Of a stretch of DNA of 64,000 nt, positions 38,753 to 60,762 are shown piece by piece. The translations under genes were made by a program, and so were the position numbers. Origin of the DNA: Halopseudomonas xinjiangensis (GTDB taxonomy: Bacteria; Pseudomonadota; Gammaproteobacteria; Pseudomonadales; Pseudomonadaceae); contig DRFO01000035.1 of NCBI GenBank assembly GCA_011050525.1, positions 1 to 64,000 of the forward strand. Reading direction: 5' to 3'. Each line of letters begins with the position of its first letter. Within the stretch, counting starts at the first letter, position 1. The notes beneath the pieces were generated by a model. That model was given only the letters and a program-made list of their open reading frames with translations, was not told the DNA's origin and did no database searches.

Positions 38753-39562
38753 CTAGTAAAGCGAAGGTGAAATGCCGCCGTCCACGTGCATATTGGTGCC
38801 GTTGATAAAGTCGGACCGGGGACTTGCCAACATCGCCACCGCATAGGCGATGTCCTCAACCTCCCCCACCTTGGCGACGGTCTGACCGGCACCCTTGAGA
38901 ACGTATGCCTCAGCTCTGGCGAGATCGTTGTCCCAGCCACGCTTGGTGGCGAAATTGGCCAGAAAGGTATTCAGCCCTGCGGTTCGGATCATGCCAGGGG
39001 AAATGGCATTGCTGGTGACCCCCGTTCCGCTCAGCGCCTTGGACAGGCTCAGCGACATGTTCAGCATGGCCGCTTTGGCTGCCGCATAGTCAGGCTGGGC
39101 CGACGTAGGGGTAATCGCCGCAGCGGTGCTGATATTGATCACCCGGCCCCAGCCCCGCTCCCGCATGGCCGGCACCAGAGCCTGAACCAGGCACATGGCG
39201 GCCAACACATTTGCCTGATAGGTCTCCAGCCAGGTGTCGGTGCCGGTGAAGAACCACCCCGGATCGGCAGTCTCGGGGCTACCACCAGCGTTGTTGACCA
39301 GGATATCGATGCCACCAGAAACCTCCAGTACAGTTTCCGCAACCTGGTCAACCCCAGCCCGGTTTGCAAGGTCACCGCAGACCACTGCGCAACGGCCCCC
39401 CTGCTGACGTATTTTCGCAGCCACGCCCTGGGCACGTTCGATGTTACGTCCATGTACCACCACCATCGCGCCTTCCGCTGCCAGCATACTGGCAATACCC
39501 ACACCGATTCCGGCGCTACTTCCGGTGACCAGCGCGGTCTTGCCTTCCAGTCGCAATTCCAT
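38753..39562 (-). CDS. SDR-family oxidoreductase
   Basis: TALVTGSSAGIGVGIASML, LVNNAGGSPET, PDYAAAKAAMLNMSLSLSKALSG. Confidence 0.92.
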   Translation of the reverse strand: MELRLEGKTALVTGSSAGIGVGIASMLAAEGAMVVVHGRNIERAQGVAAKIRQQGGRCAVVCGDLANRAGVDQVAETVLEVSGGIDILVNNAGGSPETADPGWFFTGTDTWLETYQANVLAAMCLVQALVPAMRERGWGRVINISTAAAITPTSAQPDYAAAKAAMLNMSLSLSKALSGTGVTSNAISPGMIRTAGLNTFLANFATKRGWDNDLARAEAYVLKGAGQTVAKVGEVEDIAYAVAMLASPRSDFINGTNMHVDGGISPSLY

Positions 39563-39580
39563 ATCAAAGCTCCCGCCTGA

Positions 39581-40045
39581 TTATGCCCTCACCGGCTGCT
39601 GGTCCAGCGAGTGCAAGGGTCTCACGTACTTGAACGTTCCCGAGGCCGTCGCCAGCAACTCGCCCGCTTCGTTGCGGATCTCGCCATCGCAAAAGGCCAG
39701 GCTTCTGGTGGAGGCCCGCACGATACCTGTGGCGCGCAGAAGATCTCCCTCCTTGCCACCCGGTTTCATGAAGTTGCATTTCAGTTCTACCGTCACACAA
39801 TGGCGCCCATCCCTTGACGTACTGCAGGCCATTACGACGTCCAGCAGCATCATTATCAGGCCGCCGTGGGCACTCTGGCCTCCATTCATATGGCAGGCTT
39901 CGAGCCGCAGATCAATGCCAGCGCCCTGCTCGTCGAAGCTGGGCACCCCATAGACCTTCAGGTGATCCATCAGCGGGTCGAGACCTTCGTCCGGCTTGAG
40001 ACTGGCAAGAAAGGCAGGCCGCTCTGGGCTGTTCGATTTGTTCAT
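39581..40045 (-). CDS. PaaI-type hotdog thioesterase
   Basis: CHMNGGQSAHGGLIMMLLDVVMACSTSRDG, VTVELKCNFMKPGGKEGDLLRATGIVRASTRSLAFCDGEI. Confidence 0.88.
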   Translation of the reverse strand: MNKSNSPERPAFLASLKPDEGLDPLMDHLKVYGVPSFDEQGAGIDLRLEACHMNGGQSAHGGLIMMLLDVVMACSTSRDGRHCVTVELKCNFMKPGGKEGDLLRATGIVRASTRSLAFCDGEIRNEAGELLATASGTFKYVRPLHSLDQQPVRA

Positions 40046-40050
40046 TACCG

Positions 40051-41382
40051 TTATCCTGCTACCGAGGCGTTGTCGATACTGTTGGCCGCCTGGTCGAGCA
40101 CGTCCACTGCCGGTGGCACTGGCGAGAAGTTGGGGTAACGTCCCATGGTCAGCAGCAAACAGGCGCTGACGGCGAAGCTGATGGTGCAGAAGATCAGCAT
40201 GGAGGCGTAGGACCCGCTGGTGTCATACATCACGGCGAAGAGTATCGGCGCCAGCGTACTGCCAATACTGATGAACCCCATATGCAACGCGAACACGCGA
40301 CTGTAATCACGCATGCCGAAATAACGCGCCATCATGAATGCGGCAATGTCCATTTCTGCACCAGCGCCGACACCAATCAGCATGGCGGCCAGCATCAGCG
40401 AGGGTATATGGGTTTCGACCGAGAAAAAGATGACGCAGCCGATTGCTGGCAGGAACATCACCAGAAAAGCCACGCCCGGAGCCCATAGACGATCAATCAG
40501 ATAGCCAACCAGCACGCGCCCGATAACCAACGAGATACCATACACACTGAAGGTGGCAGCGGCCTCAGCGGCGCTAAGTCCATTGTCGCGCATCATCGGC
40601 ACAGCGTTGGTCAGCATGCCGATCATGGCAATGACGAAAAAAACCAACGCGAAATTGCACAGCCAGAATTTTCTCGAACGAAATACCTCAGGCAGGACCA
40701 TGCCCGGAAGCGCCTTTGCCTTTGCCGCATCTGAGTCCAACGTACGCGAATGCCCGACCGGGCCGGATGAAGTCAGCCAGAATAGAGACATCGGAAATGT
40801 CAGCGCCAGGGGTAGGATAGCCAACACCCAGAAGCCGGCTCGCCAGCCCCACAACTCCATGGCCCAGGTCAGCAGTGGCGGCATTACCAGGCCTGACAAG
40901 CCTGTACCGCAGAGAATAATAGCCAGCGCCAAGCCGCGGTTTTTATCGAACCAGAGATTGACGAAATGAGTCCAGGTGACCTGCAGTGTTCCCAGTCCGG
41001 CAAAGGCCAGCATCGCATAACCCGCGTAAAGCTGGATAATCGACCCGGTATTCAGCGTCATCACCACATAACCTATCGGCAGGGTAATCAGCGACACCAG
41101 AGCGACGGGGCGCAATCCGTAACGCTTGTTCAGCCAGCCAGTGAACTGGATGGCTATGACTGAACTGGCAAACAGAAATGCAATGGATGACTGAACTTCC
41201 CCCCGGGACCAGCCAAAGGCTTCTTGCATGGGTACCACCATGGTGCCGAAGGCATACAGGGGAGCCACGCTGACCGAGGTGCCTATGCCAATCAGGGCGA
41301 GCACGAGTACCCGCCAGCCCTGCTGAAACTCTGCCAGATCAATGGCCAAGGAGATTTTGGCCTTGACAGCTATTTTGGACAT
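40051..41382 (-). CDS. MFS transporter
   Basis: 12-TM pattern; LYAFGTMVVPMQEAFGWSRGEVQSSIAFLFASS, RYFGMRDYSRVFALHMGFISIGSTLAPILFAVMYDTSG. Confidence 0.9.
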   Translation of the reverse strand: MSKIAVKAKISLAIDLAEFQQGWRVLVLALIGIGTSVSVAPLYAFGTMVVPMQEAFGWSRGEVQSSIAFLFASSVIAIQFTGWLNKRYGLRPVALVSLITLPIGYVVMTLNTGSIIQLYAGYAMLAFAGLGTLQVTWTHFVNLWFDKNRGLALAIILCGTGLSGLVMPPLLTWAMELWGWRAGFWVLAILPLALTFPMSLFWLTSSGPVGHSRTLDSDAAKAKALPGMVLPEVFRSRKFWLCNFALVFFVIAMIGMLTNAVPMMRDNGLSAAEAAATFSVYGISLVIGRVLVGYLIDRLWAPGVAFLVMFLPAIGCVIFFSVETHIPSLMLAAMLIGVGAGAEMDIAAFMMARYFGMRDYSRVFALHMGFISIGSTLAPILFAVMYDTSGSYASMLIFCTISFAVSACLLLTMGRYPNFSPVPPAVDVLDQAANSIDNASVAG

Positions 41383-41445
41383 AACATTACCCCGTCATTT
41401 TTATTTCTACTTAGATGTATTTTTAACCTTTCGCCAAACAAATAA

Positions 41446-41464
41446 CAAACGTTATGTCAGCTAT
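41446..41464. promoter_or_regulatory. Operator-like motif CAAACGTTATGTCAGCTAT
   Basis: Near-match CAAAC-N6-TCAGCT, in the divergent MFS/crotonase intergenic region. Confidence 0.5.
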
Positions 41465-41711
41465 TTTAGCTGTGCCTGTCAATCAATCTTGTTTGCCCCC
41501 AATTGCCTGGACAGGACCAATCGAACCACGCAATATAGAAAATAAGGCTCCCCTTAGCGAAGGCAAGGCTTCAGAACACAACATACATATCGATACGGCG
41601 ATCCGTTATCTGCCTTATAAATGTCATTATGTTATTTATACTGAAACCAGCAGTTGCTAATACACAGCGTCAGCGCGAGATACCGGCACCCTGACGTTCG
41701 CACGGATACCC

Positions 41712-42491
41712 ATGATGACCAGTGAAGTGTTGTACGAGGAGATTGACGGCTGCATCGCCCTGATCACCTTGAACCGTCCAGAAAAGCGCAATGCGATCAA
41801 TGTCAGCGTGTCGCGTACCCTGGCGGCCCATGTCGAGAATACCGAAAACAATCGGGCAATCCGGGTGGTCGTCCTCAATGGCGCTGGAGCCACAGCCTTT
41901 TCCGCTGGCGCTGACCTTGACGACATCGCTGCGGGTATCGGCGAACAGATTGCCGACCATGCAGCCGGCATGGGTGGTCTTATCCATGCCCAGCGCCGCA
42001 AGCCGTGGATCGCTGCCGTACGCGGTATGGCGCTGGGCGGTGGCGCCGAGCTGGCACTGGCCTGCGACATGATCATCGCCGGGCAGAACGCCAGTTTCTG
42101 CCTGCCGGAGGTCAAACGCGGCATGATTGCCGGCGCTGCCGGGGCTTATCGTCTGGCCCGACGCATTGCCCCGGCCATAGCCATGGAGCTGTTGCTGACC
42201 GGCAATCGGCTTGGCGCGGATCGGGCCGCCACGCTGGGCCTGGTCAACCGCGTCGTGGTGGATGATGAGGTGCTTGGCCAGGCCCTTGTACTGGCCCGCC
42301 AGATAGCCGATAACGCGCCGCTGGCCGTCAGTGAAACCCTGCTCATCGCTCGTCAGGCTCTCGACTTCGCCGAGCCGGAGCTGCGTGCTCAAAGCACCGC
42401 AGCCAGCCAGCGGCTGGCACAGTCGGAGGACATGCAGATCGGCATACGGGCATTTCAAGAGAAGCGCAAACCCGAGTGGAGCGGGCGCTAA
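41712..42491 (+). CDS. Enoyl-CoA hydratase/isomerase
   Basis: LITLNRPEKRNAINVSVSRTL, VVLNGAGATAFSAGADLDDIAAG, AAVRGMALGGGAELALACDMIIAGQNASFCLPEVKRG. Confidence 0.93.
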   Translation: MMTSEVLYEEIDGCIALITLNRPEKRNAINVSVSRTLAAHVENTENNRAIRVVVLNGAGATAFSAGADLDDIAAGIGEQIADHAAGMGGLIHAQRRKPWIAAVRGMALGGGAELALACDMIIAGQNASFCLPEVKRGMIAGAAGAYRLARRIAPAIAMELLLTGNRLGADRAATLGLVNRVVVDDEVLGQALVLARQIADNAPLAVSETLLIARQALDFAEPELRAQSTAASQRLAQSEDMQIGIRAFQEKRKPEWSGR

Positions 42492-42510
42492 CGTTTTTTT
42501 CTCCACCGTA

Positions 42511-44154
42511 TCAGCGCTTCTCGAACATGACGCCAGCCTTGATCCTGTCCCAGGTGCTGGCCGTTACCCCCTCATCACGCAAGTTGTACTTGAGAATGCG
42601 ACCAACCGGGCTGCGCGGCAGCTCGCGACGAAATTCGATGAAACGTGGCACAGCATAATAGGGCACACGCTCTATCGCCCAGCGACATAGCTCTTCCTCG
42701 ATAATCTGGGCGTCCGGACGAAGAACCGCCGTAACCTTGACCTCATCCTCCGACAGTTCGGAAAACACCGCATGCACCGCGACCTCTGCAATCGCCGGGT
42801 GCTCAGCGAAGGTCTTTTCCATCTCGTAACTGGAAATATTTTCACCCCCGCGGCGTAGATAATCCTTCTTCCGGTCGAGGAAAAAGAAAAAGCCGTCTTC
42901 ATCGATCTTGCCAATGTCGTCCGTATGGAACCACATGTTGCGCATGACCCTCAGTGTATCTGCCGGGCGGTTCCAGTAGCCTTCGAACATCACATGCGGT
43001 TTGAGCGGACGGACTATGAGTTCACCGGGGGTGCCATATGGCAGTTCGACATCGTTGTCGTCTACCACACGTATATCGAAGGAATCACAGCGCCGACCGG
43101 CGCAGTTGGGTTTGTCCGGCTCCCCGAAGGGCAGCATGGTGACGATGGCGCATTCGGTCAGCCCAAAGCCGGCACCGCCCACCGTGTGCCTGACGCCGAA
43201 ACGATCACGCCAGCGCTGCTGCAGCTCCGGCGGGAAGGGCGCGCTGTATACCTTGTTCAGTTGGCCGTAACAGCGCTCCATCGTCTCGTTGTCCGGGGCA
43301 TCAGCCAACAGGGGCGCTATGGAAGCAAGCAGATTGGCTTCATTGGCCCCACTGCGTTCAATGTCCGGCCAAAAGCCGGATACGGAAAAACGCGGGTAGA
43401 TAACCACCCGCGCCCCGATCATCAGATTGCACAGCACGGTGGTTACCGTGGCATTGAGGTGAAAAAGCGGCAGCGGCGTCCAGGTAATGGAGTCACGGCT
43501 GCGGCCGTGGCAGACGATGATCTGCCGGGCTTCGTTGCAAGCGTAATTGTGGCTGATCATGCAGCCCTTGGATGGCCCCGTGGTGCCGCCAGTGTAGATG
43601 AGCATAGCCAGGTCACCGGCGGCGACAGGGACCTGCGGATCGCTGGTGTCTTCGCTGCGAACGTCCTCCAGCGGGACCAGCAGCTTGTCGCCCAGGCTAT
43701 CCTCGGGTGCGGCGCCGCGATGCACGATGTGGCGAAGGTCCGGCAACTGCTCGGCGATAAGACCGATACGCTCTGCGTAGGCGGTTTCCGCGATTACCAC
43801 CACGGCTTTGGCATCGGCGAGCTGGTGACGCAGGAATTCTCCCTTGAATGCGGTATTGACCGGCACGCTGATGGCACCCAACTTGTTCAGGGCAAACCAG
43901 AGCAGCACCGCATCGGCGTTGTTGTCGAGAATGGTGACGACGGTCTGCCCCTTGACCACGCCCAACCGGGCCAGACCGTTGGCCAGGCGGCATGACTCAC
44001 GCTGAATGTCAGCGAAACTGTGAATCTCACCCAACACGTCGAGGAATGGCTGGTCGCCGAAATCGCGTGCTGCGCGACGTACTACGTCGTTGATGGTATC
44101 GGATTCGCCGAGGCTCCAGCCTGGCAGCGCCTGGTCATTCAGTGGAAGATTCAT
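42511..44154 (-). CDS. AMP-dependent acyl-CoA synthetase, paralogue of 36200..37831
   Basis: LIYTGGTTGPSKGCMISHNYACNEARQI, MWFHTDDIGKIDEDGFFFFLDRKKDYLRRGGENISSYEMEKTF; extended similarity to 36200..37831. Confidence 0.93.
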   Translation of the reverse strand: MNLPLNDQALPGWSLGESDTINDVVRRAARDFGDQPFLDVLGEIHSFADIQRESCRLANGLARLGVVKGQTVVTILDNNADAVLLWFALNKLGAISVPVNTAFKGEFLRHQLADAKAVVVIAETAYAERIGLIAEQLPDLRHIVHRGAAPEDSLGDKLLVPLEDVRSEDTSDPQVPVAAGDLAMLIYTGGTTGPSKGCMISHNYACNEARQIIVCHGRSRDSITWTPLPLFHLNATVTTVLCNLMIGARVVIYPRFSVSGFWPDIERSGANEANLLASIAPLLADAPDNETMERCYGQLNKVYSAPFPPELQQRWRDRFGVRHTVGGAGFGLTECAIVTMLPFGEPDKPNCAGRRCDSFDIRVVDDNDVELPYGTPGELIVRPLKPHVMFEGYWNRPADTLRVMRNMWFHTDDIGKIDEDGFFFFLDRKKDYLRRGGENISSYEMEKTFAEHPAIAEVAVHAVFSELSEDEVKVTAVLRPDAQIIEEELCRWAIERVPYYAVPRFIEFRRELPRSPVGRILKYNLRDEGVTASTWDRIKAGVMFEKR

Positions 44155-44993
44155 GCCTGCGGCTCCTGTTGAAGGGTAAAATTGCCTTGAAGGCGCTGCC
44201 AGCGCTTCTGAGCTGTGGCAAGCGTGCCTCCGTGACTGAGAATGAAAAACTGGCCGTTGCGCATCCCTTCGATCGCTTTCCGGGCGACATCGTCCGCGGA
44301 GACGGTCGCCTGAACGGCCGATTTTTGTGTGCCCTGGTAGAACTCTTGGGCGGGAGCCGAGGGTGGAGCGGCAGTACAGACAGAATGATCCATGCCAGGA
44401 CGGGTCAGCCCCGTTTGCACCATGCCTGGACAGAGCACCGATACGCTGATGTTCGCCCCCAAGGCATTAAGCTCCAGCTCCAGTGACTCGGAGAGGGCTA
44501 TCAACGCCGCTTTCGACGCTGCGTAAGGTGCAAGATACGGTAAGGCCACCAAGCCGCCCATCGAGGCGGTATTGATCACATGGCCATCGGGCTGCCCAAG
44601 CATCAATGGGATAAAACTGTGGATACCATGAATCACTCCCATCAGGTTCACATCGAGCACGCGCCGCCAGTTGGCCAGATCATGCTCCCAGCTCTCACGG
44701 GGTAGGTCGCCGGCAATCCCGGCGTTGTTGCACAGCACATCCACGCGACCAAAATGCTCGATACTGCGCCGGGCAAGCGCGTCGACCGAGGCCGCATCGG
44801 CCACATCCACTGCCACCCCCAATACCGCAAAACCCTTGTCGCTCAGGCTATGCGCTGCTTCTGTCAACGCCGGACTCGGCAGATCTGCCAGCACCACTCG
44901 CATTCCTTCCCGGCAAAATGCCCCGGCCATGGCGAGACCAAGGCCGCTGGCGGCCCCCGTCACTACTGCTGTTTTACCCATCAGATGCTGCAT
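44151..44993 (-). CDS. SDR-family oxidoreductase
   Basis: TAVVTGAASGLGLAMAGAFCREGMRVVLADL, LCNNAGIAGDL, YAASKAALIALSESLELELNALG. Confidence 0.92.
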   Translation of the reverse strand: MQHLMGKTAVVTGAASGLGLAMAGAFCREGMRVVLADLPSPALTEAAHSLSDKGFAVLGVAVDVADAASVDALARRSIEHFGRVDVLCNNAGIAGDLPRESWEHDLANWRRVLDVNLMGVIHGIHSFIPLMLGQPDGHVINTASMGGLVALPYLAPYAASKAALIALSESLELELNALGANISVSVLCPGMVQTGLTRPGMDHSVCTAAPPSAPAQEFYQGTQKSAVQATVSADDVARKAIEGMRNGQFFILSHGGTLATAQKRWQRLQGNFTLQQEPQA

Positions 44994-45032
44994 CGCGAAT
45001 ACTCCTGATACCGCCGTTGCGGCATGTCGGGG

Positions 45033-45806
45033 TCAACGGGTCGGTACGGTGCCGCCGTCGACACAGAGGGTCTGGCCGGTAATGAAGCCCGATCCGTCGC
45101 TGGCAAGAAAAACCATGAACGGTGCCAGATCCCGCTCGGCATCACCCAGTTTTCCGCCCATTGGAATCACCCGGCTCAGTAGTTCGTCATGGGTCGCCAG
45201 TTCGTCGGCGCTCATCTTTGCCCTGTGGGTGTCATACATGGGCGTCCACATCATCGGCGCTACGGCGTTGACGGTAATCCGATGTTTGGCCCACTCCTGG
45301 GCAAGGGTGCGGGTCCAGGCCAGGACCGCGCCCTTGGAAGCGGCATAATGAGCCGCGTTCGGCATGCCATTGATGCCAGCGGCCGAGCCGAAGTTGATGA
45401 TCCTGCCGCCCTGTTCGCACAGATACGGGAAGGCTGCCTGGTTGGTATGCAGAGTGCCACGGACATTGACGTCGAAAATCAGGTCCCAGTCCGCCTGGCC
45501 GATGGCTTCCGCCGGCGCGGTGCGTTCAACGCCAGCGATATTGGCCAGCACATCAAGCCCGCCCAGCCAGTCACAGGCCTGGGCAAACACCGTGCGGACC
45601 TGATCCGCATCGGCGATATTGCAGGACAGATACCGTGCGTGACCGGGGTACCGGGCATTGATGGCAGCGACCACTGCCGCGCCTTCATCATCCAGCACAT
45701 CCAGTGCAACCACTCGGGCACCTGCGGCTGCATAGGCACGGGCAACGACGGCGCCGATGCCACGTGCACCGCCGGTAACGATGATATTCTTGCCAGCAAG
45801 CTGCAT
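45033..45806 (-). CDS. SDR-family oxidoreductase
   Basis: MQLAGKNIIVTGGARGIGAVVARAYAAAGARVVALDV, HYAASKGAVLAWTRTLAQEWAKHRITVNAVAP; start refined from 46403. Confidence 0.92.
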   Translation of the reverse strand: MQLAGKNIIVTGGARGIGAVVARAYAAAGARVVALDVLDDEGAAVVAAINARYPGHARYLSCNIADADQVRTVFAQACDWLGGLDVLANIAGVERTAPAEAIGQADWDLIFDVNVRGTLHTNQAAFPYLCEQGGRIINFGSAAGINGMPNAAHYAASKGAVLAWTRTLAQEWAKHRITVNAVAPMMWTPMYDTHRAKMSADELATHDELLSRVIPMGGKLGDAERDLAPFMVFLASDGSGFITGQTLCVDGGTVPTR

Positions 45807-45853
45807 AGCGATAACCTCTTGAATTGTTGTGGTTGAGGTTGTCAAAACCCGCC

Positions 45854-46612
45854 TCAGGGCATCCCGCCGTCCACCTTGATCAGCGACCCGGTGGTATAGC
45901 TGGAGTAAGGGCTGGCCAGATACAGGGCAGTGGTGATGATTTCTTCCGGCCGGCCTGGCCGGCCCAGCGCACTGACGCACTTCTCGCGCATCTCCTCGGT
46001 CCAGGCCTTGGAGATATCGGTCAGAAAGGGGCCGGCCGATATCGTATTGACCCGCACCCTGGGCCCGTACTCCTGCGCCAGGCCGACGCTCATGGCATTC
46101 AGCGCGGCCTTCGCCCCGGCGTAGGGCACTATCATGGGCGAGGGGCGAAGACCGCCGGTGCTGCTGATATTGATGATTGAGCCGCCCTCGCCCTGCGCCA
46201 TGCGCTGGGCAATGATCGACGCCAGACGGAACGGGCCCTTGAAGTTGAGCCCGACGACCTTGTCGAACAGTTCCTCGGTCACCTGATGGCTCGGTACCGC
46301 CGGTGACATCCCGGCGTTGTTCACCAAAACATCGACCCGGCCAAATTCGGCGTAGGCCACTTCTGCCAGGCGCTCTACTTCTTCCCACTTGCCGGCATGA
46401 CACGCAACGGCCAGGGCTCGCCGGCCCAGGGCGCGCATTTCCGCGGCTACCGCTTCGCAGGCCTCCAGCTTGCGGCTGGCGATAATCACATCGGCTCCAT
46501 GGGCGGCGAACGCTCGGACCATCTGGTAACCCAATCCACGACTGCCGCCGGTAACCAGCACCACCTTGCCGGTCAGATCAAACAGCGTTTCCTGGTTAAA
46601 CGCATCGCTCAT
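45854..46612 (-). CDS. SDR-family oxidoreductase
   Basis: MSDAFNQETLFDLTGKVVLVTGGSRGLGYQMVRAFAAHGADVIIASR, VPYAGAKAALNAMSVGLAQEYGPRVRVNTISAGPFLTD; start refined from 46957. Confidence 0.92.
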   Translation of the reverse strand: MSDAFNQETLFDLTGKVVLVTGGSRGLGYQMVRAFAAHGADVIIASRKLEACEAVAAEMRALGRRALAVACHAGKWEEVERLAEVAYAEFGRVDVLVNNAGMSPAVPSHQVTEELFDKVVGLNFKGPFRLASIIAQRMAQGEGGSIINISSTGGLRPSPMIVPYAGAKAALNAMSVGLAQEYGPRVRVNTISAGPFLTDISKAWTEEMREKCVSALGRPGRPEEIITTALYLASPYSSYTTGSLIKVDGGMP

Positions 46613-47927
46613 CACAGTTCTCCAATAGCTGGTCATCAAGAATGTGGGCGTAGCGCGTACGGGCCGCAGCGATTTTTGGCGGCAGATGTTCACTGGGAAA
46701 CAGGCCTTCAGCCGGCCGGTGATGGCGTAGCAGTTCCTTGGCCACAGTCGCCCGGTGTACCTCGGTCGGACCGTCTGCGAGGCCAAAGGTCGGCACGTTG
46801 ATCCACATGTAGGCCAGCGGCGTTTCAAAGGTTGCGCCCAGCGAGCCATGCATGTGCAGCGCCCGCTGGACAATGTCGTGGTACACCTTCGCCATACCCA
46901 CCTTGACCATCGCAATGTGCCCACGAGCCTGGCGCGGATCGCCATGGCTCCGATCAATGATCCAGGCGGTCTTGATCACCAGCAGACGGAACTGCTCGAG
47001 CTCTATCTGGCTATCGGCGATCATGGCTTGCACCGTGCCCAGATCTGCCAGTCTGGTTCCCTGGGTGTACCGGCTCAGAGCCCTCTCGCACATCATGTCC
47101 AGAGCCCGCTGACATTGGCCAACGATGCGCATGGCGTGGTGCACTCGCCCGCCACCGAGACGCGCCTGGGCGACGGCGAATCCGCCGCCAGGCTCACCCA
47201 ACATATGATCGAGGGGTACGCGCACATCGTTGTAACGAAGATAACCCTCGGTGGCCTCGTCCATCTCCAGTCGCTCACCCATGTGCGGCACATTGCGGAT
47301 GATTTCCAGCCCAGGCGAGCCCTTCGGCACGATGAACATCGACATGCGCTTCTGGATCGGTGCATCCGGGTCGGTTACCGCCAGCACCAGCAGGAATTCG
47401 GCGTAACGCGCATTGGATGAATACCACTTCTCGCCACTGATAACCCAGTGGTCGCCATCGCGCCGGGCCTGCGTGGTAAATACCCGCGGATCAGCCCCTC
47501 CCTGCGGCTCGGTCATGGAAAAACAGGAGACGATGTCACCATCGAGCAGTGGTTGCAGGTATCGGTCCTTCTGGTCCTGGGTGCCGAACATGGCGAGGAT
47601 CTCGGCATTGCCGGTATCCGGCGCCGCGGTCCCGAACACGGTTGGCGCCCAGAGCGAACGACCCAGGCGCTCGTTCATCAGCGCCAGAGCCACCTGGCCA
47701 TAGCCCTCGCCGCCCAGTTCGGGCCCCAGATGGCAGGCCCACAAACCCTGGCTCTTAACCTCTGCCTGCAGCGGTTTGAGAATGGCACGGGAAGCGCTGT
47801 GGCGGGTGTCGTAGACCACGCTGACGGATGGATACAGCACATCCAGCGGCTCCACTTCCTCAATCAGGAAGCGATCAATCCAGTCCAGCTTGGCCTTAAA
47901 CTCGGGGTCAGTTGAAAAGTCCCACAT
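46596..47927 (-). CDS. Acyl-CoA dehydrogenase (ACAD10/11- or LvaC-like)
   Basis: CFSMTEPQGGADPRVFTTQARRDGDHWVISGEKWYSSNARYAEFLLV, HMHGSLGATFETPLAYMW, DGPTEVHRATVAKELL. Start at MWDFSTDPEF with GGAG upstream. Confidence 0.92.
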   Translation of the reverse strand: MWDFSTDPEFKAKLDWIDRFLIEEVEPLDVLYPSVSVVYDTRHSASRAILKPLQAEVKSQGLWACHLGPELGGEGYGQVALALMNERLGRSLWAPTVFGTAAPDTGNAEILAMFGTQDQKDRYLQPLLDGDIVSCFSMTEPQGGADPRVFTTQARRDGDHWVISGEKWYSSNARYAEFLLVLAVTDPDAPIQKRMSMFIVPKGSPGLEIIRNVPHMGERLEMDEATEGYLRYNDVRVPLDHMLGEPGGGFAVAQARLGGGRVHHAMRIVGQCQRALDMMCERALSRYTQGTRLADLGTVQAMIADSQIELEQFRLLVIKTAWIIDRSHGDPRQARGHIAMVKVGMAKVYHDIVQRALHMHGSLGATFETPLAYMWINVPTFGLADGPTEVHRATVAKELLRHHRPAEGLFPSEHLPPKIAAARTRYAHILDDQLLENCDERCV

Positions 47928-47964
47928 CTTGTCATTCTCCATCAAGGTGTCAGAAATTGCCGGC

Positions 47965-49035
47965 TCATGCGCTGGCAATCAGCTGTCTGGCCTTGGCCAT
48001 CAGCCAGATCGCGTAGTTGTGCAGGTAAAGGCCCATTTCCTTCGGCGCCTTGCCGGCGAGGGATCGTGCATAGGTGCCCTCCAGCAGACAGGCAAGCTTG
48101 TAGCAGGCAAGTACAAAGAACCACGGCATGGAGCTCATGTCCCGGCCGCTCAGCTCGCCGTACAGGGAAATCAGTTCGGCACGCGTCATGAAGCCATCCC
48201 AGGGCTGGACTATCGGCCCGCCGCTGGCTCCTCCCTCGCTCGGGTCACCCGGTTCACGCCAGGAGGTCAGTACCCAGGCAAGATCCAGTAAGGGGTCTCC
48301 GAGCGTGGAAAGCTCCCAGTCGATCAGCCCGGAGATGCGCGGGGATTCGAGGGAGAACATGACATTGGGCCATTGAAAATCACCGTGAATGATGCCGATG
48401 CGACCATCCGCCGGGACGTTGTCAGTCAGCCACCGGCCGGTTTCATCCATATACGGCAGAGGAGCTTCGGCGGCGTAACCGGGAACGTCGCGATATCCAT
48501 CCAATTGCGAGCGCCAGCGCTCTACCTGCCGCGCGTGCCAGTTGACTGGTTTGCCGAAATCGTCGAGGCCGGCGGCCTGATGATCGACCGCCGCCAGCGC
48601 CGCGGCAGCCCGAACAAACTCCTCGCCCATACGGTGGCGCCAGCTTGAATCCGTTGCGCAGCGGCCCTGAAGCGACCCGGCGGGGGAAAATCCCTCGAGC
48701 GGTTCCATCAGGAAAAAATTCACGCCGATCACCGACAGGTCATCGCAGAGACCGAGCAAGGCGGGATGCGGCACGTCACTTCCAGCCAGAGCACCCAAGA
48801 CGCGGGCCTCGCGCAACATGGTCTGGTTGCTGGTAGGCCGCAGGTGGCGGGGTGGGCGGCGCAGCACGAAGCGCTGATCGCCCCGCTGCAATAAGAACAG
48901 ATTATTCTGCGAACCACCGGTCAACTGCTCTACGCCAGTAACCGGGCCGTTTCCAGGCAGCGAACCCGCCATCAGCCAGTCATTCAGTGCAGGCCAGTCG
49001 AGCAGCCCGTCAAAGGAGGGAAGATCCTGGGTCAT
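47965..49035 (-). CDS. APH/ACAD10-type acyl-CoA kinase-like phosphotransferase
   Basis: QLTGGSQNNLFLLQRGDQRFVLRRPP, IGIIHGDFQWPNVMFSLESPRISGLIDWELSTLGDPLLDLAWVL (HGDxxxxN and DWE motifs). Confidence 0.9.
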   Translation of the reverse strand: MTQDLPSFDGLLDWPALNDWLMAGSLPGNGPVTGVEQLTGGSQNNLFLLQRGDQRFVLRRPPRHLRPTSNQTMLREARVLGALAGSDVPHPALLGLCDDLSVIGVNFFLMEPLEGFSPAGSLQGRCATDSSWRHRMGEEFVRAAAALAAVDHQAAGLDDFGKPVNWHARQVERWRSQLDGYRDVPGYAAEAPLPYMDETGRWLTDNVPADGRIGIIHGDFQWPNVMFSLESPRISGLIDWELSTLGDPLLDLAWVLTSWREPGDPSEGGASGGPIVQPWDGFMTRAELISLYGELSGRDMSSMPWFFVLACYKLACLLEGTYARSLAGKAPKEMGLYLHNYAIWLMAKARQLIASA

Positions 49036-49121
49036 TGTCTGTCTCTCTTGTTCTGTGCATAAAGTTCAGATCACGTCGTGACCGCTCAACCACATGCCGG
49101 AGAGACACCCAGGGACTCATG

Positions 49122-49667
49122 TCATGAATGGTCTCCCTTCGGCGAAGCCCCGGGATTATCCGGATAGCGTTCCAGATTCCGCCGTACCTGGCGCAGCACC
49201 TCCAGGGCCTGAAGCAATACCGGCGCCTCAAGACCATGGGCGACATGCTCGGTCCATTCGGCACTCTCCCGATTGACCTGCTCGTAGACGCGCCGGCCCT
49301 TTGCGGTCGCCAGCAACTGCCGGGAGCGTTTGTGGTGCGGATTGTCCGCGTACACCACGTAGCCTTCGCCAACTATCAGGTCCGCTGTCTTCTGAATGGC
49401 CTGCCGGGTGTAACCGAGACTCCGGGCAATACGCGCCACCGTAGGGGGCTCAAGGGCCAATACAACCGAAGCCAGCACAATGGCCTGCGTGGAGTTACCC
49501 AGTACCGACGGCTTACGGGAACTCATTACCCGGCCATGCAGCCGCAGTATCTCGTCCACCAGCTCGGCGATACGTGCCCCCGCCTCGCTGTGTACCGAGC
49601 GATCAAAGGTCGGCAATAAGCCAGCATCTTCAGACTGCATGCTCACAATATGACACCTACTTTCCAT
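49122..49667 (-). CDS. MarR-family transcriptional regulator
   Basis: VLALEPPTVARIARSLGYTRQAIQKTADLIVGEGYVVYADNPHHKRSRQLLATAKGRRVYEQV is a winged-HTH. True start may be internal (MQSEDAG). Confidence 0.88.
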   Translation of the reverse strand: MESRCHIVSMQSEDAGLLPTFDRSVHSEAGARIAELVDEILRLHGRVMSSRKPSVLGNSTQAIVLASVVLALEPPTVARIARSLGYTRQAIQKTADLIVGEGYVVYADNPHHKRSRQLLATAKGRRVYEQVNRESAEWTEHVAHGLEAPVLLQALEVLRQVRRNLERYPDNPGASPKGDHS

Positions 49668-49668
49668 T

Positions 49669-49686
49669 ATGACAACCAGTTGTCAT
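49669..49686. promoter_or_regulatory. Perfect palindrome ATGACAAC-CA-GTTGTCAT
   Basis: 8-bp perfect half-sites immediately upstream of the MarR gene; candidate autoregulatory operator. Confidence 0.65.
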
Positions 49687-49814
49687 TTATTTTTTGATAA
49701 ACCCACCTGCCCTGAACGGCAGTTCGATCAGTTTAGCGTGGCCGCAAATCAAGCACACTGCACCACCACAGCAAAAACACTATACAAAACATAACTGACT
49801 AATCATTATTTATT

Positions 49815-49831
49815 GTCAGGACTTTCCTGAC
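49815..49831. promoter_or_regulatory. Palindrome GTCAGGA-CTT-TCCTGAC
   Basis: Perfect 7-bp inverted repeat 46 nt upstream of the SnoaL-like ORF start. Confidence 0.45.
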
Positions 49832-49876
49832 CCGCTATGAACCATCGTCACGGCAACAGCTACTGGAGGCCAGAAA

Positions 49877-50335
49877 ATGAATGAAATGGACAGCCAAGCC
49901 CACGAAGCAATTCGCAATACGCTGGCCACCTATAACTGGTGCGGAGATAACGGTGACTACGAAGGATATCTTGCCACCTTTGCGCTCAATGGAGTGCTCG
50001 ATCTCAAGAACATTGGCACCTACGACGGCCGGGAGTCCATCCGTGAAGGCGTAACTCGGGCCTTCGGAGCCAGTCCAGCGCAGCTGGAAAGGCGCCGCAA
50101 GGCTGGCGGCCGCTTCTCGCATCATGTTTCCAGTATTCGGATAGAACTAACCAGCTCCACCGAGGCACGTTGCTGGTCTTACTTCGCTGTGGCAGGCCCC
50201 AGCGGGTGGGATCACTGGGGCCGGTATACCGACCGGCTGGCGCTGATTGAAGGGCGCTGGCTATTCACCTACCGCCGGGTCAGCGTTGATGGTCGTTCGC
50301 CCGGGGCGGTCTTGTACGACCCAAACTCACAATAG
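49877..50335 (+). CDS. SnoaL/NTF2-like protein
   Basis: IRNTLATYNWCGDNGDYEGYLATFALNGVLDLKNIGTYDGRESIREGVTRAF, HHVSSIRIELTSSTEARCWSYFAV, DRLALIEGRWLFTYRRVSVDG. Confidence 0.85.
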   Translation: MNEMDSQAHEAIRNTLATYNWCGDNGDYEGYLATFALNGVLDLKNIGTYDGRESIREGVTRAFGASPAQLERRRKAGGRFSHHVSSIRIELTSSTEARCWSYFAVAGPSGWDHWGRYTDRLALIEGRWLFTYRRVSVDGRSPGAVLYDPNSQ

Positions 50336-50352
50336 AAAATAGGAGAATGACC

Positions 50353-51432
50353 ATGCCCTTGCGTGTAATCGTTTGTTATACGGGCGGTGTCGGAAGCGAA
50401 GTGGCACGCCTGGTATTGCAGAACCCCGCCTTTGAGCTGGTTGGTGTGCTGGTGCACAGCAGCGAAAAGGAAGGCAAGGATGTCGGCGACATCATCGGTA
50501 TCGGACCGGTCGGGCTGAAGGCAACCCGGGATGTGGACGCACTGCTGGCCTTGCAGGCTGATGTCGCTGCCTGGCATGGCCTGACCTGGCAGCCGGAAGT
50601 GGTGGCCAGATTCTTGCGCGCCGGTACGGGTGTCTATTCGAGTATCGGCGGATGGCATCTGCCTAGCGCACCCGAATACCACTTGCTGCAGAGTGCCGCC
50701 GAAGAAGGTGGAGCCGCGCTCATGGCCGGTGGCAATATTCCCGGTCTGATAAGCGATGTGTTACCGCTCTTCTGTACGGGTTACTCCACCAACATCCGCA
50801 TGATCAAAGCCTTCCAGAGAAACTTTGTGCCCCACTACCCCTCGGCGGTTCAGCTGAGTCAGTTTGTTGGCATTGGCCAGCCGGTGCCGGACTCTACATT
50901 CGACCCCCAGGCTGAACTACCTGAAGCCGACAAACTCTGGATGTGGGGCATTGCCCAGTCCGCCCGCATCGTCGCGCAGGGGCTCGGCATACCAATGGAT
51001 GACCTGCGGCTGACTAACAAGGAATATGGCCGCTCTCCGCAGGACATGGTCTTGCAGCCAAGCGGATTGAAAGTCGCCAAAGGCACCGCCGCCGGTGTGC
51101 GCTGGACCTTTACCGCCTTCTCCCAAGGCGAACCTTTCTACCAGTTGATCAATGAACAGACCACCCGGCTCGATATCGGTAGTGACTGGCGGGAAACGGA
51201 AGATACCCCGAACTGGCGCGTTGTCATTGAAGGGTCGCCGAGTATCCGATGCGAATTCAGTTTGCTCGCCGATCACAGCGGCCCGGACGATGTCGCCTCG
51301 CTGAACGCGGCCCGAGCAGTGAATTTCCTGCCCAGAATCGCCGCAGCAGCCCCCGGCTGGCATACCGTACTGGATGTGCCCGCCCCCATCGGCAGCCTGG
51401 CGACGCAGATCCCTGAAAGGAAAATACAATGA
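50353..51432 (+). CDS. DapB-like / diaminopentanoate-dehydrogenase-like NAD(P)-dependent oxidoreductase
   Basis: MPLRVIVCYTGGVGSEVARLVLQNPAFELVGVLVHSSEKEGKDVGDIIGIGPVGLKATRDVDALLAL; Rossmann start, DapB-like N-domain; AGGAG 7 nt upstream of ATG 50353. Confidence 0.8.
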   Translation: MPLRVIVCYTGGVGSEVARLVLQNPAFELVGVLVHSSEKEGKDVGDIIGIGPVGLKATRDVDALLALQADVAAWHGLTWQPEVVARFLRAGTGVYSSIGGWHLPSAPEYHLLQSAAEEGGAALMAGGNIPGLISDVLPLFCTGYSTNIRMIKAFQRNFVPHYPSAVQLSQFVGIGQPVPDSTFDPQAELPEADKLWMWGIAQSARIVAQGLGIPMDDLRLTNKEYGRSPQDMVLQPSGLKVAKGTAAGVRWTFTAFSQGEPFYQLINEQTTRLDIGSDWRETEDTPNWRVVIEGSPSIRCEFSLLADHSGPDDVASLNAARAVNFLPRIAAAAPGWHTVLDVPAPIGSLATQIPERKIQ

Positions 51433-52262
51433 AAATTTTACGCCACAAGGCTGACCTGGATGCTGAACTGACGGCACTGAGAGCTCAGAACAAATCCATT
51501 GGCTGGGTCGGCACCAGCGGAGCCTTGCATGAGGGACACCTATCACTGCTGCGCCATGCCGGTTCTGAGAACGACGCAGTGATTATGTTCTGGACTGGCG
51601 ACATGGCGTTTCCCTGGGCGGGGATTTCCAATCCATCCTATCCCCGCGACTATGAAAAAGATGCCGCCATGGCCGCAAGCGCCGGAGCGAAGCTGCTCTA
51701 CATTCCAAGGGGCGAAGAGATATATCCCCAGCCTCCCATTGTCACGGTCACAACGCCGGCCTTGCATCGCCCAGGCCTGACGGCACCGCAACATCTAGAC
51801 ATGGTGGCGCTGTTCATGAGCAAATTTCTCAGCATGGTTGGCGGTTGCACCTGTTACATGGGCGAAAAGGACTGGCAACAGTTGGTGATGATGCGCCAGG
51901 TAGCCAGCGACCTGTCACTTCCGGTGACGCGTTTTGTCATCACTCCGACCGTGCGCGACGCAGATGGTGTTCCCCTGTCGAGCCGCAACATAAAGCTGAC
52001 ACCGGAAAACCGTATAGCCGCCGCAATAGTTCCCCAGGCTCTGGAAGCCGCGGCCAGAGCCATCGCCGAAGGCGAAAGGGATCCAAACAGAGTCAGAGAG
52101 ATCATAGTCGAACGCATAGAAGGCCAGGCACTGCTGGTTTACGCCCATGTGGTCAGCGAAACACTCCAGGATATCAATCCGCTGCGCGGGCCAATCCGGC
52201 TGATGGCCTGCGCACGATTTGGCGAGGTGGAGATTCTCGACAACCTGGGCGTTAACATCTGA
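51429..52262 (+). CDS. PanC-like (pantoate--beta-alanine ligase family) enzyme, divergent paralogue
   Basis: GALHEGHLSLL (HxGH), CYMGEKDWQQLVMMRQV, PTVRDADGVPLSSRNIKLTPENR. Start overlaps the upstream stop (ATGA). Confidence 0.9.
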   Translation: MKILRHKADLDAELTALRAQNKSIGWVGTSGALHEGHLSLLRHAGSENDAVIMFWTGDMAFPWAGISNPSYPRDYEKDAAMAASAGAKLLYIPRGEEIYPQPPIVTVTTPALHRPGLTAPQHLDMVALFMSKFLSMVGGCTCYMGEKDWQQLVMMRQVASDLSLPVTRFVITPTVRDADGVPLSSRNIKLTPENRIAAAIVPQALEAAARAIAEGERDPNRVREIIVERIEGQALLVYAHVVSETLQDINPLRGPIRLMACARFGEVEILDNLGVNI

Positions 52263-52302
52263 CCCGCCAGCAGTCGCAGCGTGACAGGTTGTTCCTTACC
52301 CT

Positions 52303-53085
52303 TCAGATTCCTGCAGCCATGTAGCCACCATCGACCGGCAGCACTATGCCGGTAACAAAGGAGGCTGCAGGGCTGCACAGGAACATGATGCCGGCGGCAA
52401 TTTCCTCCGGACGCCCCCAGCGCCCCATTGGCGACCTGGCCATGACACGGCCGTTGCGCTCCTTATCCTGTTGCATTGCCTTGGTCATGGGGGTATCAAT
52501 CCAGCCAGGCGCTACAGCATTTACCCGGATACCCTCGGCAGCCCAGGCCAGAGCCAGGCTTTTGGTCAACTGCACTACCCCACCCTTGCTGGCGGAATAA
52601 GCTGGCGCGGTCGGACTGCCGAAAAAGCTCATGACAGAAGCCAGGTTCACGATACAGCCCTGGCTGGCTGCCAGCAGCGCCTGGGTCGCATAGCACATCC
52701 GCATGGTGCCAACGAGGTTTACTTCAAGGGTTTTCACGAACCCTTCCTCAGTGAACTCGCTTGTCCCGCGACCGACACCCGCTGCATTGACCAGCACATC
52801 CAATCTCTCAAGCCGCCCCAGGCAACTGCTCACGGCATCGGCATCCGCTACATCCAGCACAGCAAAGCGAGCCTCCTTGAGGGCCTGATCAGCGCTGCAA
52901 GCCTCGATTTCCTGTTGGGATATGCCCGTAGCCAGCACATTGCAGCCGGATTTCAATAACTCGATGACAACAGCACGCCCGATACCGCTAGTACCGCCTA
53001 CAACCAGCCCGTATTTACCAATCAGATCAATATTCACATCGATTTCCTCTTCCGCACCAGGCTCGTCACGCAGCATAAATAACAT
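52303..53085 (-). CDS. SDR-family oxidoreductase
   Basis: IGKYGLVVGGTSGIGRAVVIELLKSGCNVLATG, LVNAAGVGRG, PAYSASKGGVVQLTKSLALAWAAEGIRVNAVAPGWIDTPM. Start uncertain (53085, 53073 or a GTG at 53037). Confidence 0.9.
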   Translation of the reverse strand: MLFMLRDEPGAEEEIDVNIDLIGKYGLVVGGTSGIGRAVVIELLKSGCNVLATGISQQEIEACSADQALKEARFAVLDVADADAVSSCLGRLERLDVLVNAAGVGRGTSEFTEEGFVKTLEVNLVGTMRMCYATQALLAASQGCIVNLASVMSFFGSPTAPAYSASKGGVVQLTKSLALAWAAEGIRVNAVAPGWIDTPMTKAMQQDKERNGRVMARSPMGRWGRPEEIAAGIMFLCSPAASFVTGIVLPVDGGYMAAGI

Positions 53086-53201
53086 ACTTTCATTTATAGT
53101 TTACTTCCATTAACGCTATGGAACTAAACGGTCGATTGGAGCCTTCTCAAGTGACGGCAATCGCTTCATGTTTATGGCAGCAATGCTTGACTCCGCCATA
53201 A

Positions 53202-53220
53202 AGCTAACATATCGTCAGCT
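53202..53220. promoter_or_regulatory. Operator-like motif AGCTAACATATCGTCAGCT
   Basis: Near-perfect dyad, 32 nt upstream of ATG 53253; recurs elsewhere in the window. Confidence 0.65.
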
Positions 53221-53252
53221 CTACAAACCTAACACAGCGAATTGAGGCCCTT

Positions 53253-54443
53253 ATGAAAACCGTCGATTACCCTATCTATGATGTCGACCGTCATTTCTAC
53301 GAGCCGCCGGAAGCTTTCCTGCGCCACTTACCCAAGGAATTTCGTAAAGACTTTCAATACGTGCAGGTCAACGGTCGTACCAAGCTGGCGGTCGGCGGAG
53401 TCCTGAGCGATTACATCCCCAATCCGACCTTTGACGTGGTTGCCGCCCCTGGCGCCCATGAGGACTGGTATCGCGGAAAAAACCCGGAAGGCCTGTCCCT
53501 GCGCGAGATCGGCGGCGAGCCAGTTCCCGGCGACCCAGCCTTTTTCAGCGGCGAGGCCCACCTGAAAGTCATGGACGAACAAGGTATCCACGCCGGACTC
53601 TTTCTGCCTACCCTGGCCTCGGTTATCGAAGAAAGGCTGGAGCACAAGCCAGAAGCTATCGCAGCCCTGTTTGGTGCGGTGAACCGCTGGCTGGTGGAAG
53701 ACTGCGGGCTCGCGCGGGATGATCGCCTGTTCCCGGTACCCATGGTCAATCTGTTCGATGTAGACAAGGCGGTCGAGGAGCTTGATTTTCTCATCAAGTC
53801 CGGCGCCCGCGTGGTTGGCATCCGTCCTGCGCCGGTAATCGGCCTGAAAGGAGGTCGCTCTTTCGGTTTCCCTGAATTTGATCCCTTCTGGGCACGTGTC
53901 AGTGAGGCGAACATTTTTGTGGTTCTGCACGTCTCGGATTCAGGCTATGACAAGATCAACCGCTGGTGGACTGCTGGTGGCGAGGGTGAATTCCGGCCCT
54001 TTGAGAAAAACCCCTTCGCCGAAGTTCTAGACTGGATGGGAAGAGCCATTTCCGACTCCCTTACTGCTCTGATCTGTCATGGCGTGTTCGACCGCTTCCC
54101 GAATATTCGGGTCGCGTCACTCGAAAATGGTTCTGATTGGCTTGAACCTCTACTGCTCCGGCTGGCGCTGAACTTCAAAAAGATGCCGAACGCGTTCAAA
54201 CAGGATCCGGTTGAGACATTCAAGAAGCACGTCTTCGTTTCTCCTTTTTACGAAGACCCGGTCGCCAGACTCATCGAGCTGATTGGGGTGGAGCGCATTC
54301 TTTTCGGCAGCGACTGGCCGCATCCAGAAGGTCTGAAAACTCCTCTGGATTTCTTCAAGGACATCAATCATCTGAACGATGCGCAGATCAAACGGATCAT
54401 GCATACCAACATGAAAGGTCTCATTGAGGGTGCTCGCGACTGA
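53253..54443 (+). CDS. Amidohydrolase family 2 (ACMSD-like metal-dependent hydrolase)
   Basis: YPIYDVDRHFYEPPEAF, GLFLPTLASVIEERL, LICHGVFDRFPNIRVASLENGSDWLEPLL, RILFGSDWPHPEGLKTPLDFF. Confidence 0.92.
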   Translation: MKTVDYPIYDVDRHFYEPPEAFLRHLPKEFRKDFQYVQVNGRTKLAVGGVLSDYIPNPTFDVVAAPGAHEDWYRGKNPEGLSLREIGGEPVPGDPAFFSGEAHLKVMDEQGIHAGLFLPTLASVIEERLEHKPEAIAALFGAVNRWLVEDCGLARDDRLFPVPMVNLFDVDKAVEELDFLIKSGARVVGIRPAPVIGLKGGRSFGFPEFDPFWARVSEANIFVVLHVSDSGYDKINRWWTAGGEGEFRPFEKNPFAEVLDWMGRAISDSLTALICHGVFDRFPNIRVASLENGSDWLEPLLLRLALNFKKMPNAFKQDPVETFKKHVFVSPFYEDPVARLIELIGVERILFGSDWPHPEGLKTPLDFFKDINHLNDAQIKRIMHTNMKGLIEGARD

Positions 54444-54466
54444 TTGCATCAACCTGATCAATCCTT

Positions 54467-54506
54467 AACAGGTACGGGAACAAGCTGCCCCTACCTGTTT
54501 TTTTTT
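54467..54506 (+). terminator. Rho-independent terminator
   Basis: AACAGGTACGGG...CCCCTACCTGTTTTTTTTT: stem plus T-run after the amidohydrolase. Confidence 0.8.
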
Positions 54507-54549
54507 GCCCATTCATGCCTCCATCTGACGAGGCGATGGAGAGATTTTC

Positions 54550-55338
54550 ATGGCCGACGATTCGCTCCTTTTGATGGAAATTCGCGATTCTATTGCCTGG
54601 GTTACCTTCAACCGACCAGGCGCACTGAACGCTCTGAATGTAGAACTTGCTGGATTATTCCTTGCGGCATGCAAAACCATTTCCAAAAGCAGCACCATCC
54701 GCGCTGTAGTGCTTCAGGGCAACGGACGCGCATTCATGGCAGGAGGCGATATTGGCATGATGGCGGCTACGCCGGAGAGAGTGATTTCCGACCTGATAGA
54801 GCCTATGCATGAGGCACTGGCGCTCTTGGCAGAGATTGACGCTCCCGTGCTCGCCTCTGTAAAAGGTGCGGTTGCCGGGGCGGGAGTAAGCATGATGCTG
54901 GCCGCCGATCTGACGATAGCGAGTGAAACCACCAGAATCAACACGGCTTATTCCCGAATTGGAGCAAGCGGAGACTTGGGCATAACCTGGACGTTACCGC
55001 GCGTCGTTGGGCTTGGCAGGGCAATGGATCTTATGCTCAGACCCAGAACCCTTGATGCAACTGAGGCCCTGGCGCTCGGCATGGTCGGCTCAGTCGTCTC
55101 CGAGAAGGACCTGCAAAAGAGCACTGTCGATGTCGCGACCCAACTGGCCGCTGGCCCGGTAAAAGCGTTTGGTCATATTCGTCGTTTGCTCAGACAGGGC
55201 ATGACGCAAAGCTTTAATAGACAACTGGTTATGGAAGCCGCCGCGTTCAATGAGTGCCTGGCTAGTGAAGAAATGATAACGGCATTGAACGCTTTTCTGG
55301 AGAAGAAGCCTCGCCAGGTGCATGACGCAGACGGGTGA
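54550..55338 (+). CDS. Enoyl-CoA hydratase/isomerase
   Basis: VTFNRPGALNALNVELAGLF, VVLQGNGRAFMAGGDIGMM, ASVKGAVAGAGVSMMLAADLTIASETTRINTAYSRIGASGDLG. Confidence 0.93.
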   Translation: MADDSLLLMEIRDSIAWVTFNRPGALNALNVELAGLFLAACKTISKSSTIRAVVLQGNGRAFMAGGDIGMMAATPERVISDLIEPMHEALALLAEIDAPVLASVKGAVAGAGVSMMLAADLTIASETTRINTAYSRIGASGDLGITWTLPRVVGLGRAMDLMLRPRTLDATEALALGMVGSVVSEKDLQKSTVDVATQLAAGPVKAFGHIRRLLRQGMTQSFNRQLVMEAAAFNECLASEEMITALNAFLEKKPRQVHDADG

Positions 55339-55590: not shown

Positions 55591-55764
55591 TTCTCCGTCT
55601 TCAGCAGCGTAGGCAACAAGCTGCTCTTTCATGCTGCGCGCCCAGAATTTCTTCAGATGCCCCGCCACCACTGTCGCCGCTTGGTGTTCGTCGCCGTGGT
55701 GGAGGTTATTGGCACTGATCTGGTTGACCATCTTGATCAGGTTCTGCAACTGCTGGTCACTCAC
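55543..55764 (-). CDS. fdsD: NAD-dependent formate dehydrogenase delta subunit
   Basis: MSDQQLQNLIKMVNQISANNLHHGDEHQAATVVAGHLKKFWARSMKEQLVAYAAEDGEQLSPVSRLAVGQMR; directly follows fdsA. Confidence 0.85.
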   Translation of the reverse strand: MSDQQLQNLIKMVNQISANNLHHGDEHQAATVVAGHLKKFWARSMKEQLVAYAAEDGEQLSPVSRLAVGQMRA

Positions 55765-58655: not shown

Positions 58656-58672
58656 ATCGTGCCTCCACTCTG

Positions 58673-60223: not shown

Positions 60224-60762
60224 TTCAGCTCCAGTGTAGAGGTGGTCAAGCGGTCAACCAGACGGTCGAACTTGGCTGGCGTCATACGGCCATGGATATC
60301 GTCGCCCACGCGAATGGAGGGTGCACAGGCACAATTGCCCAGACAATAAACCGGCTCGAGGGTTAACTCGTTATCCCGGCTGGTCTGATGGTAGTCCACC
60401 CCCAGGCTGGCCTTGATGTGGCTTTCCAGTTGCCGCCCGCCCATCGCCTGACAGGCTTCGGCACGGCATACATGCAGCACATTGCTACCCACAGGATGCG
60501 AGCGAAAATGATGATAAAAGGTAATCACTCCATGCACTTCCGCCCGGGTCTGGCGCAACGCCTCGGCGATAATGGGTACGGCGGCGTCAGGGATATAGCC
60601 AAAGCGGTCCTGAATGGCGTGCAATATCGGCAGCATCGCCCCCGGGATGTGCTTGAGCGCGTCGACTTCCAGCTGGATCGAAGCTGGCGTCCATTCATCG
60701 AAGCAGGCTTTCCCGCTAGCACGTCCTGATTGAGTATTTTGCTGTAACATATGCATAACCAT
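60220..60762 (-). CDS. fdsG: NAD-dependent formate dehydrogenase gamma (2Fe-2S, NuoE-like) subunit
   Basis: GAMLPILHAIQDRFGYIPDAAVPIIAEALRQTRAEVHGVITFYHHFR, CRAEACQAMGG, YCLGNCACAPSIRVGDDIHGRM. Confidence 0.95.
   Translation of the reverse strand: MVMHMLQQNTQSGRASGKACFDEWTPASIQLEVDALKHIPGAMLPILHAIQDRFGYIPDAAVPIIAEALRQTRAEVHGVITFYHHFRSHPVGSNVLHVCRAEACQAMGGRQLESHIKASLGVDYHQTSRDNELTLEPVYCLGNCACAPSIRVGDDIHGRMTPAKFDRLVDRLTTSTLELK

Follow-up and report, generated by a model that had tools for sequence, protein, structure and literature searches.

A PanC-like protein with altered acid-pocket residues is encoded beside a glutamate-less DapB-like oxidoreductase in a catabolic gene block of Halopseudomonas

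Introduction

PanC, a drug target, is regarded as having one function, in the synthesis of vitamin B5 (pantothenate). In the literature we searched, no PanC paralogue with another substrate was described, and nothing relevant was found on the combination of DapB-like, PanC-like and SnoaL genes. Alanine mutants of H44, H47, N69, Q72, K160 and Q164 in M. tuberculosis PanC each reduce activity (PMC5772511).

Native amine dehydrogenases use an ammonia-activating glutamate, E102 in AmDH4 and E108 in CfusAmDH (PMC9325545). When these enzymes were surveyed, members without this Glu, mainly from group G5, were inactive as amine dehydrogenases (PMC11164908). The amine dehydrogenase literature places such Glu-less DAP_DH_C proteins in a separate group whose activity is divergent. 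In the levulinate (lva) pathway, LvaA and LvaC convert 4-hydroxyacyl-CoA via a phospho intermediate (PMC11342911).

Here we describe a locus of Halopseudomonas xinjiangensis in which relatives of these proteins are encoded close together. The analysis covered a 64,000-nucleotide stretch of contig DRFO01000035.1, hereafter the window.

Results

Three co-directional genes form a compact module

The sister sequence used for comparison is from Pseudomonas sp. WN033, which marker analysis puts in Halopseudomonas (PMC11855360). The module consists of the following features.

49877..50335, plus strand: SnoaL_4 / NTF2-fold protein, 152 aa (Pfam PF13577, 5.9e-18; 87.5% identity in WN033)
50353..51432, plus strand: DapB/DAP_DH_C-superfamily NAD(P)-dependent oxidoreductase (PF19328 DAP_DH_C, 4.6e-10; PF01113 DapB_N, 1.7e-07)
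51429..51432, plus strand: 4-nt ATGA in which the DapB-like stop and the PanC-like start overlap, seen in the sequence and not kept in WN033
51429..52262, plus strand: PanC-family ligase-like protein, 277 aa (PF02569 Pantoate_ligase, 1.3e-53)

The order and strand of the three open reading frames and the 4-nt overlap were all verified in the sequence, in agreement with the preliminary description of the locus. The SnoaL_4 protein is a putative small isomerase or dehydratase. The DapB-like protein would have 359 aa from a start at 50353 and 361 aa from one at 50347. A Shine-Dalgarno-like AGGAGA at 50341-50346 abuts ATG 50347 and lies 6 nt ahead of ATG 50353, and the sister protein in WN033 begins at the Met that matches 50353. 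Because of this spacing (6 nt, against none to 50347) and the sister start, ATG 50353 is most likely the true start.

The ATGA overlap had also been taken to imply translational coupling. However, it is absent in WN033, the sole relative, where the PanC-like gene starts 52 nt past the DapB-like stop and has its own ribosome-binding site. Given this gap of ~50 nt in WN033, the two genomes do not share strict translational coupling.

The PanC-like protein keeps the adenylation residues and loses pantoate-pocket residues

The PanC-like protein has the same fold as PanC (PF02569, TIGR00018; 3inn, M. tuberculosis 1n2b/1n2h) and all of the ATP/adenylate residues. Its AlphaFold2 model (pLDDT 85.5) best matched 3inn in the PDB (TM 0.84-0.87, Foldseek probability 1.00, 37% identity). 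We used M. tuberculosis PanC numbering, which we take to map onto the PanC-like motifs. When compared with 46 canonical PanCs, the PanC-like protein keeps the equivalents of H44, H47, K160, D161, Q164, S196, S197 and R198. Four residues that are invariant in these 46 proteins are replaced in both genomes: M40 by S, N69 by D/E, Q72 by F and R132 by A/D. In PanC structures, M40 and R132 line the pantoate site. In a second alignment the N69 and Q72 columns were shifted by one residue (G and A/S), and again neither Asn nor Gln was present. The canonical motifs PTMG, FVNPxQF and RPGH correspond to GTSG, a TG(D/E)Mx motif and (A/D)PQH. Relative to canonical PanC the loop length is altered, and the TIGR00018 equivalog score of 153.9 bits falls under the family cutoff of 212.75.

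These data suggest that the PanC-like protein probably retains ATP activation and has changed its acid substrate. The preliminary description had treated the protein as a ligase that joins an acid to an amine. ATP-driven ligation is plausible because the adenylation machinery is kept.

In a maximum-likelihood tree, the PanC-like pair fell outside all 46 canonical PanCs with support of 100/100, on a stem of 4.0 + 1.5, or ~5.5 substitutions/site. Its 33% identity to the resident panC, together with this far-outside position, ruled out that it is a recent duplicate of that gene.

Conservation of the adenylation residues is by itself no proof of ligase activity. The PanC-like protein could instead make no product, as a pseudoenzyme or as an ATP-binding regulator or partner of the DapB-like protein. 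Consistent with this alternative, four otherwise invariant acid-pocket residues are lost, and the model has an insecure loop at residues 62-70, its sole region with pLDDT <50, which adjoins the altered loop. A pseudoenzyme would, however, be expected to have lost some of its adenylation residues, yet HxGH, KD, Q164 and SSR are all kept, and the gene has a dN/dS of 0.10. We consider loss of catalysis unlikely.

The DapB-like protein lacks the glutamate of amine dehydrogenases

By sequence, the DapB-like protein falls in the same superfamily as 2,4-diaminopentanoate dehydrogenase and the native amine dehydrogenases. It shares the two-domain DapB_N + DAP_DH_C organization of these enzymes and has 25-33% identity to family relatives; its NF040740 score is 81.9 bits, far under the cutoff of 400. 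The structure model was poor (pLDDT 55.6). Unlike AmDH4 and CfusAmDH, the protein has Gly in place of the catalytic Glu at P3 and in this respect resembles the Glu-less group G5 enzymes. E102 of AmDH4 (6g1m) aligns with G101 (361-aa numbering), and WN033 has Gly here too. The Glu was absent in alignments to AmDH4 6g1m and to A2. Three relatives (L061, L063 and L065) retain an EEM motif, and therefore the alignment is able to detect the catalytic Glu.

The preliminary description had assigned the DapB-like protein to imine or amine substrates. This argument fails because the catalytic Glu is replaced by Gly and Glu-less members of the family are inactive. A wider amine route would have the DapB-like protein make or use an amine or imine, with the PanC-like protein forming an amide with the amine. 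Membership in the 2,4-diaminopentanoate/native amine dehydrogenase superfamily and the coupling of acid to amine by PanC enzymes both favor such a route. However, the ammonia-activating position is Gly in both genomes, published tests found Glu-less members inactive, and the annotated part of the surrounding block contained neither a transaminase-like gene nor any other amine gene. We regard an amine route as quite unlikely.

The module is an add-on to a CoA-based catabolic block

The module lies in a 16.5-kb block that is common to the window and WN033. Similarity ends at both sides and the flanks are unrelated, suggesting that the block is mobile or differentially lost. Its main features outside the module are listed here.

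38760..55312, no strand assigned: collinear block common to the window and Pseudomonas sp. WN033 (blastn, ~86% DNA identity)
42511..44154, minus strand: AMP-forming acyl-CoA ligase (PF00501, 7.1e-66)
46596..47978, minus strand: acyl-CoA dehydrogenase of the ACAD11/LvaC kind, its ORF overlapping the kinase ORF (ACAD11, ~1e-69)
47965..49035, minus strand: APH-fold kinase resembling LvaA and the ACAD10-11 kinase domain (PF01636; ACAD11 kinase domain, 9.6e-34)
52303..53085, minus strand: SDR oxidoreductase, convergent with the module (PF13561)
53253..54443, plus strand: Amidohydro_2 protein (PF04909; 96% identity in WN033)

In addition to the acyl-CoA ligase, the Amidohydro_2 protein and the APH kinase adjoining the acyl-CoA dehydrogenase, the block encodes at least four SDRs, two enoyl-CoA hydratases, a thioesterase and an MFS transporter. 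No other Amidohydro_2 protein was found in 249 phylum genomes at E 1e-90. Just outside the block, at 55761-60762, an NAD-dependent formate dehydrogenase-like set can be recognized by sequence (large molybdopterin-type, NuoF-like and NuoE-like). Next, at 60840-61910, comes a regulator that resembles LysR/ModE and carries a substrate-binding domain.

Among solved structures, the products of this gene pair (46596-49035) are most similar to the corresponding kinase and dehydrogenase portions of ACAD11 and to bacterial relatives. This homology suggests a putative phosphorylation of 4-hydroxyacyl-CoA followed by phosphate elimination. Because the pair resembles LvaA/LvaC, we propose that the pathway of the block probably passes through 4-hydroxyacyl-CoAs. 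The adjacent APH-fold kinase and ACAD11-like dehydrogenase, the acyl-CoA ligase and the SDRs are shared with the lva pathway and with ACAD10/ACAD11, but the block adds the SnoaL, DapB-like, PanC-like and Amidohydro_2 genes and extra SDR/ECH genes.

Halopseudomonas G008, G016 and G024 have ACAD-APH-SDR cassettes in which the ACAD (59-60% identity) and APH (44%) genes are adjacent as in the block; the SDR has 54% identity in two of the three. The clusters around these cassettes differ from the block in their genes; that of G024 includes a CoA-transferase III, a ferredoxin-reductase-type protein and DUF1329. The DapB-like/PanC-like module is absent from all three clusters. The module is thus an add-on to a CoA-based pathway.

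A CoA-hungry pathway might be served by an accessory enzyme that boosts CoA supply, with the PanC-like protein still making pantothenate or a close analogue. The protein is a PanC family member in a CoA-using pathway, and pantoate is a 4-hydroxy acid. These points are opposed by the lost pantoate-pocket residues, by the TIGR00018 score under its cutoff, and by the canonical PanC that the host genome (44 contigs, 3.97 Mb) encodes elsewhere. Canonical PanC also differs from the PanC-like protein in setting, the latter sitting in a catabolic cluster apart from the normal panC. A role in CoA supply appears very unlikely.

A MarR gene and a largely conserved palindrome lie upstream

A divergent regulator and palindromes had been noted upstream of the module, and both were found there.

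49122..49667, minus strand: MarR-family regulator (MarR_2), divergent from the module (PF12802, 3.2e-08; 93% identity in WN033)
49669..49686, no strand assigned: inverted repeat ATGACAAC-CA-GTTGTCAT, perfect and operator-like, immediately ahead of the annotated start of the MarR gene

The inverted repeat has perfect 8-bp arms. The pattern TGACAAN4TTGTCA occurs once in 64 kb, at this site, with none expected by chance. The repeat is largely kept in WN033, where it reads ATGACAAC-TA-ATTGTCAT. A second palindrome between the divergent genes, GTCAGGA-CTT-TCCTGAC at 49815-49831, is not kept in WN033. The MarR gene may start at an internal ATG at 49640 and not at 49667 (window 49640-49667). On the minus strand, a sequence resembling a promoter (49675-49647) overlaps both the 49669-49686 palindrome and the annotated MarR start.

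The module is restricted to two genomes and is under purifying selection

The DapB-like and PanC-like genes occur only in the same 2 of 37 Halopseudomonas genomes. Scanning the whole collection with the DapB-like protein, an approach that reaches close relatives only, returned one close relative, WN033 (89%), and besides it one 28% Nocardioides homologue. No PanC-like gene lies near that homologue in its 13.8 kb. When 394 order and 369 class genomes were searched for close relatives of the PanC-like protein, none was found above E 1e-42 besides the window itself. The 17 best matches in 399 phylum genomes (35-42%) were all canonical at the pocket residues.

The DNA of the three genes had no match among plasmids, and plasmid protein searches found only distant DapB-like relatives (26-31%); among the matches listed, PanC proteins had 38-40% identity and were mostly annotated panC. 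IMG/VR contained no DapB-like protein and six PanC relatives (26-36%), which were used solely to deepen the structure alignment. In the collections searched, the DapB-like/PanC-like pair was not found beyond the two Halopseudomonas genomes.

Conserved synteny of the pair, which the preliminary description had proposed as a check, holds in these two genomes. It does not extend to distant DapB-like relatives: at seven loci in six gammaproteobacterial class genomes, no PanC gene was present in the flanking sequence retrieved, which in some cases is short. Co-occurrence across genomes therefore survives within one genus only. In the Nocardioides MAG (L033 4200-5788), the 28% DapB-like protein lacks the catalytic Glu, and its gene and a SnoaL-like gene point away from each other. 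The SnoaL/DapB-like neighborhood may recur more widely than the link to PanC.

Between the window genome and WN033, dN/dS was 0.15 for SnoaL, 0.11 for the DapB-like and 0.10 for the PanC-like gene. By this measure all three are clearly under purifying selection, and values of ~0.1 (0.10-0.15) indicate that all three are maintained as working proteins. The neighboring kinase (0.05), dehydrogenase (0.06) and amidohydrolase (0.03) have lower values, so constraint on the module is weaker. Because the module is known from two genomes only, its conserved residues are hard to separate from shared ancestry, and conservation within the module is weak evidence.

The genes are co-directional, co-inherited and under purifying selection within a CoA-based catabolic cluster, which supports the earlier view that they form one unit. 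That they are chance neighbors in a horizontally acquired block, serving unrelated steps, is the least likely alternative: only two related genomes carry them, similarity breaks off abruptly at either end of the block and the ATGA overlap is not conserved, but the intergenic gaps are short, the strand is shared, a single regulator is divergent, and both genes occur together in 2/37 genomes.

Discussion

We lean towards reading the locus as an accessory, MarR-regulated catabolic module that pairs a non-amine oxidoreductase with a neofunctionalized PanC that activates an acid by ATP. This reading is supported by the separate canonical panC, the 2/37 co-occurrence, the low dN/dS, the loss of pocket residues from a confidently modeled PanC fold, the outlying tree position, the missing amine-dehydrogenase Glu, the catabolic neighbors with their LvaA/LvaC-like pair and the operator-like palindrome. 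Anatomy, co-inheritance, selection, and residue gains and losses are observed; from here we infer direction, substrate, acceptor and regulation.

In the proposed scheme, the two divergent units are probably both kept off by the MarR protein and come on once the substrate, or its CoA ester, is present. The SnoaL-like protein would isomerize or dehydrate a pathway intermediate. The DapB-like protein would act as an NAD(P)-dependent oxidoreductase on a carbonyl or hydroxy intermediate, not on an amine, and would supply the acid to the PanC-like protein. The latter would bind ATP in the canonical way, convert a non-pantoate acid into its acyl-adenylate, and pass the acyl group to a nucleophile, which may be an amine or another group.

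A more specific proposal, which we hold tentatively and rate a little short of even, is that the PanC-like protein founds a new functional PanC subfamily. Its members would use a non-pantoate acid and, with a Glu-less DapB-like oxidoreductase, carry out an undescribed catabolic ATP-driven acyl-adenylate or amide step.

An altered PanC and a Glu-less DapB-like protein among the regulated degradation genes of two related, marine-type Halopseudomonas suggest that the breakdown of some compound includes a coupling step driven by ATP. If this is true, a natural PanC variant whose acid pocket is remodeled while its adenylation site is intact would show how the ligase fold shifts its specificity. It would also caution against labeling every PF02569 protein panC, and would offer a possible role for DAP_DH_C proteins that lack the amine-dehydrogenase Glu.
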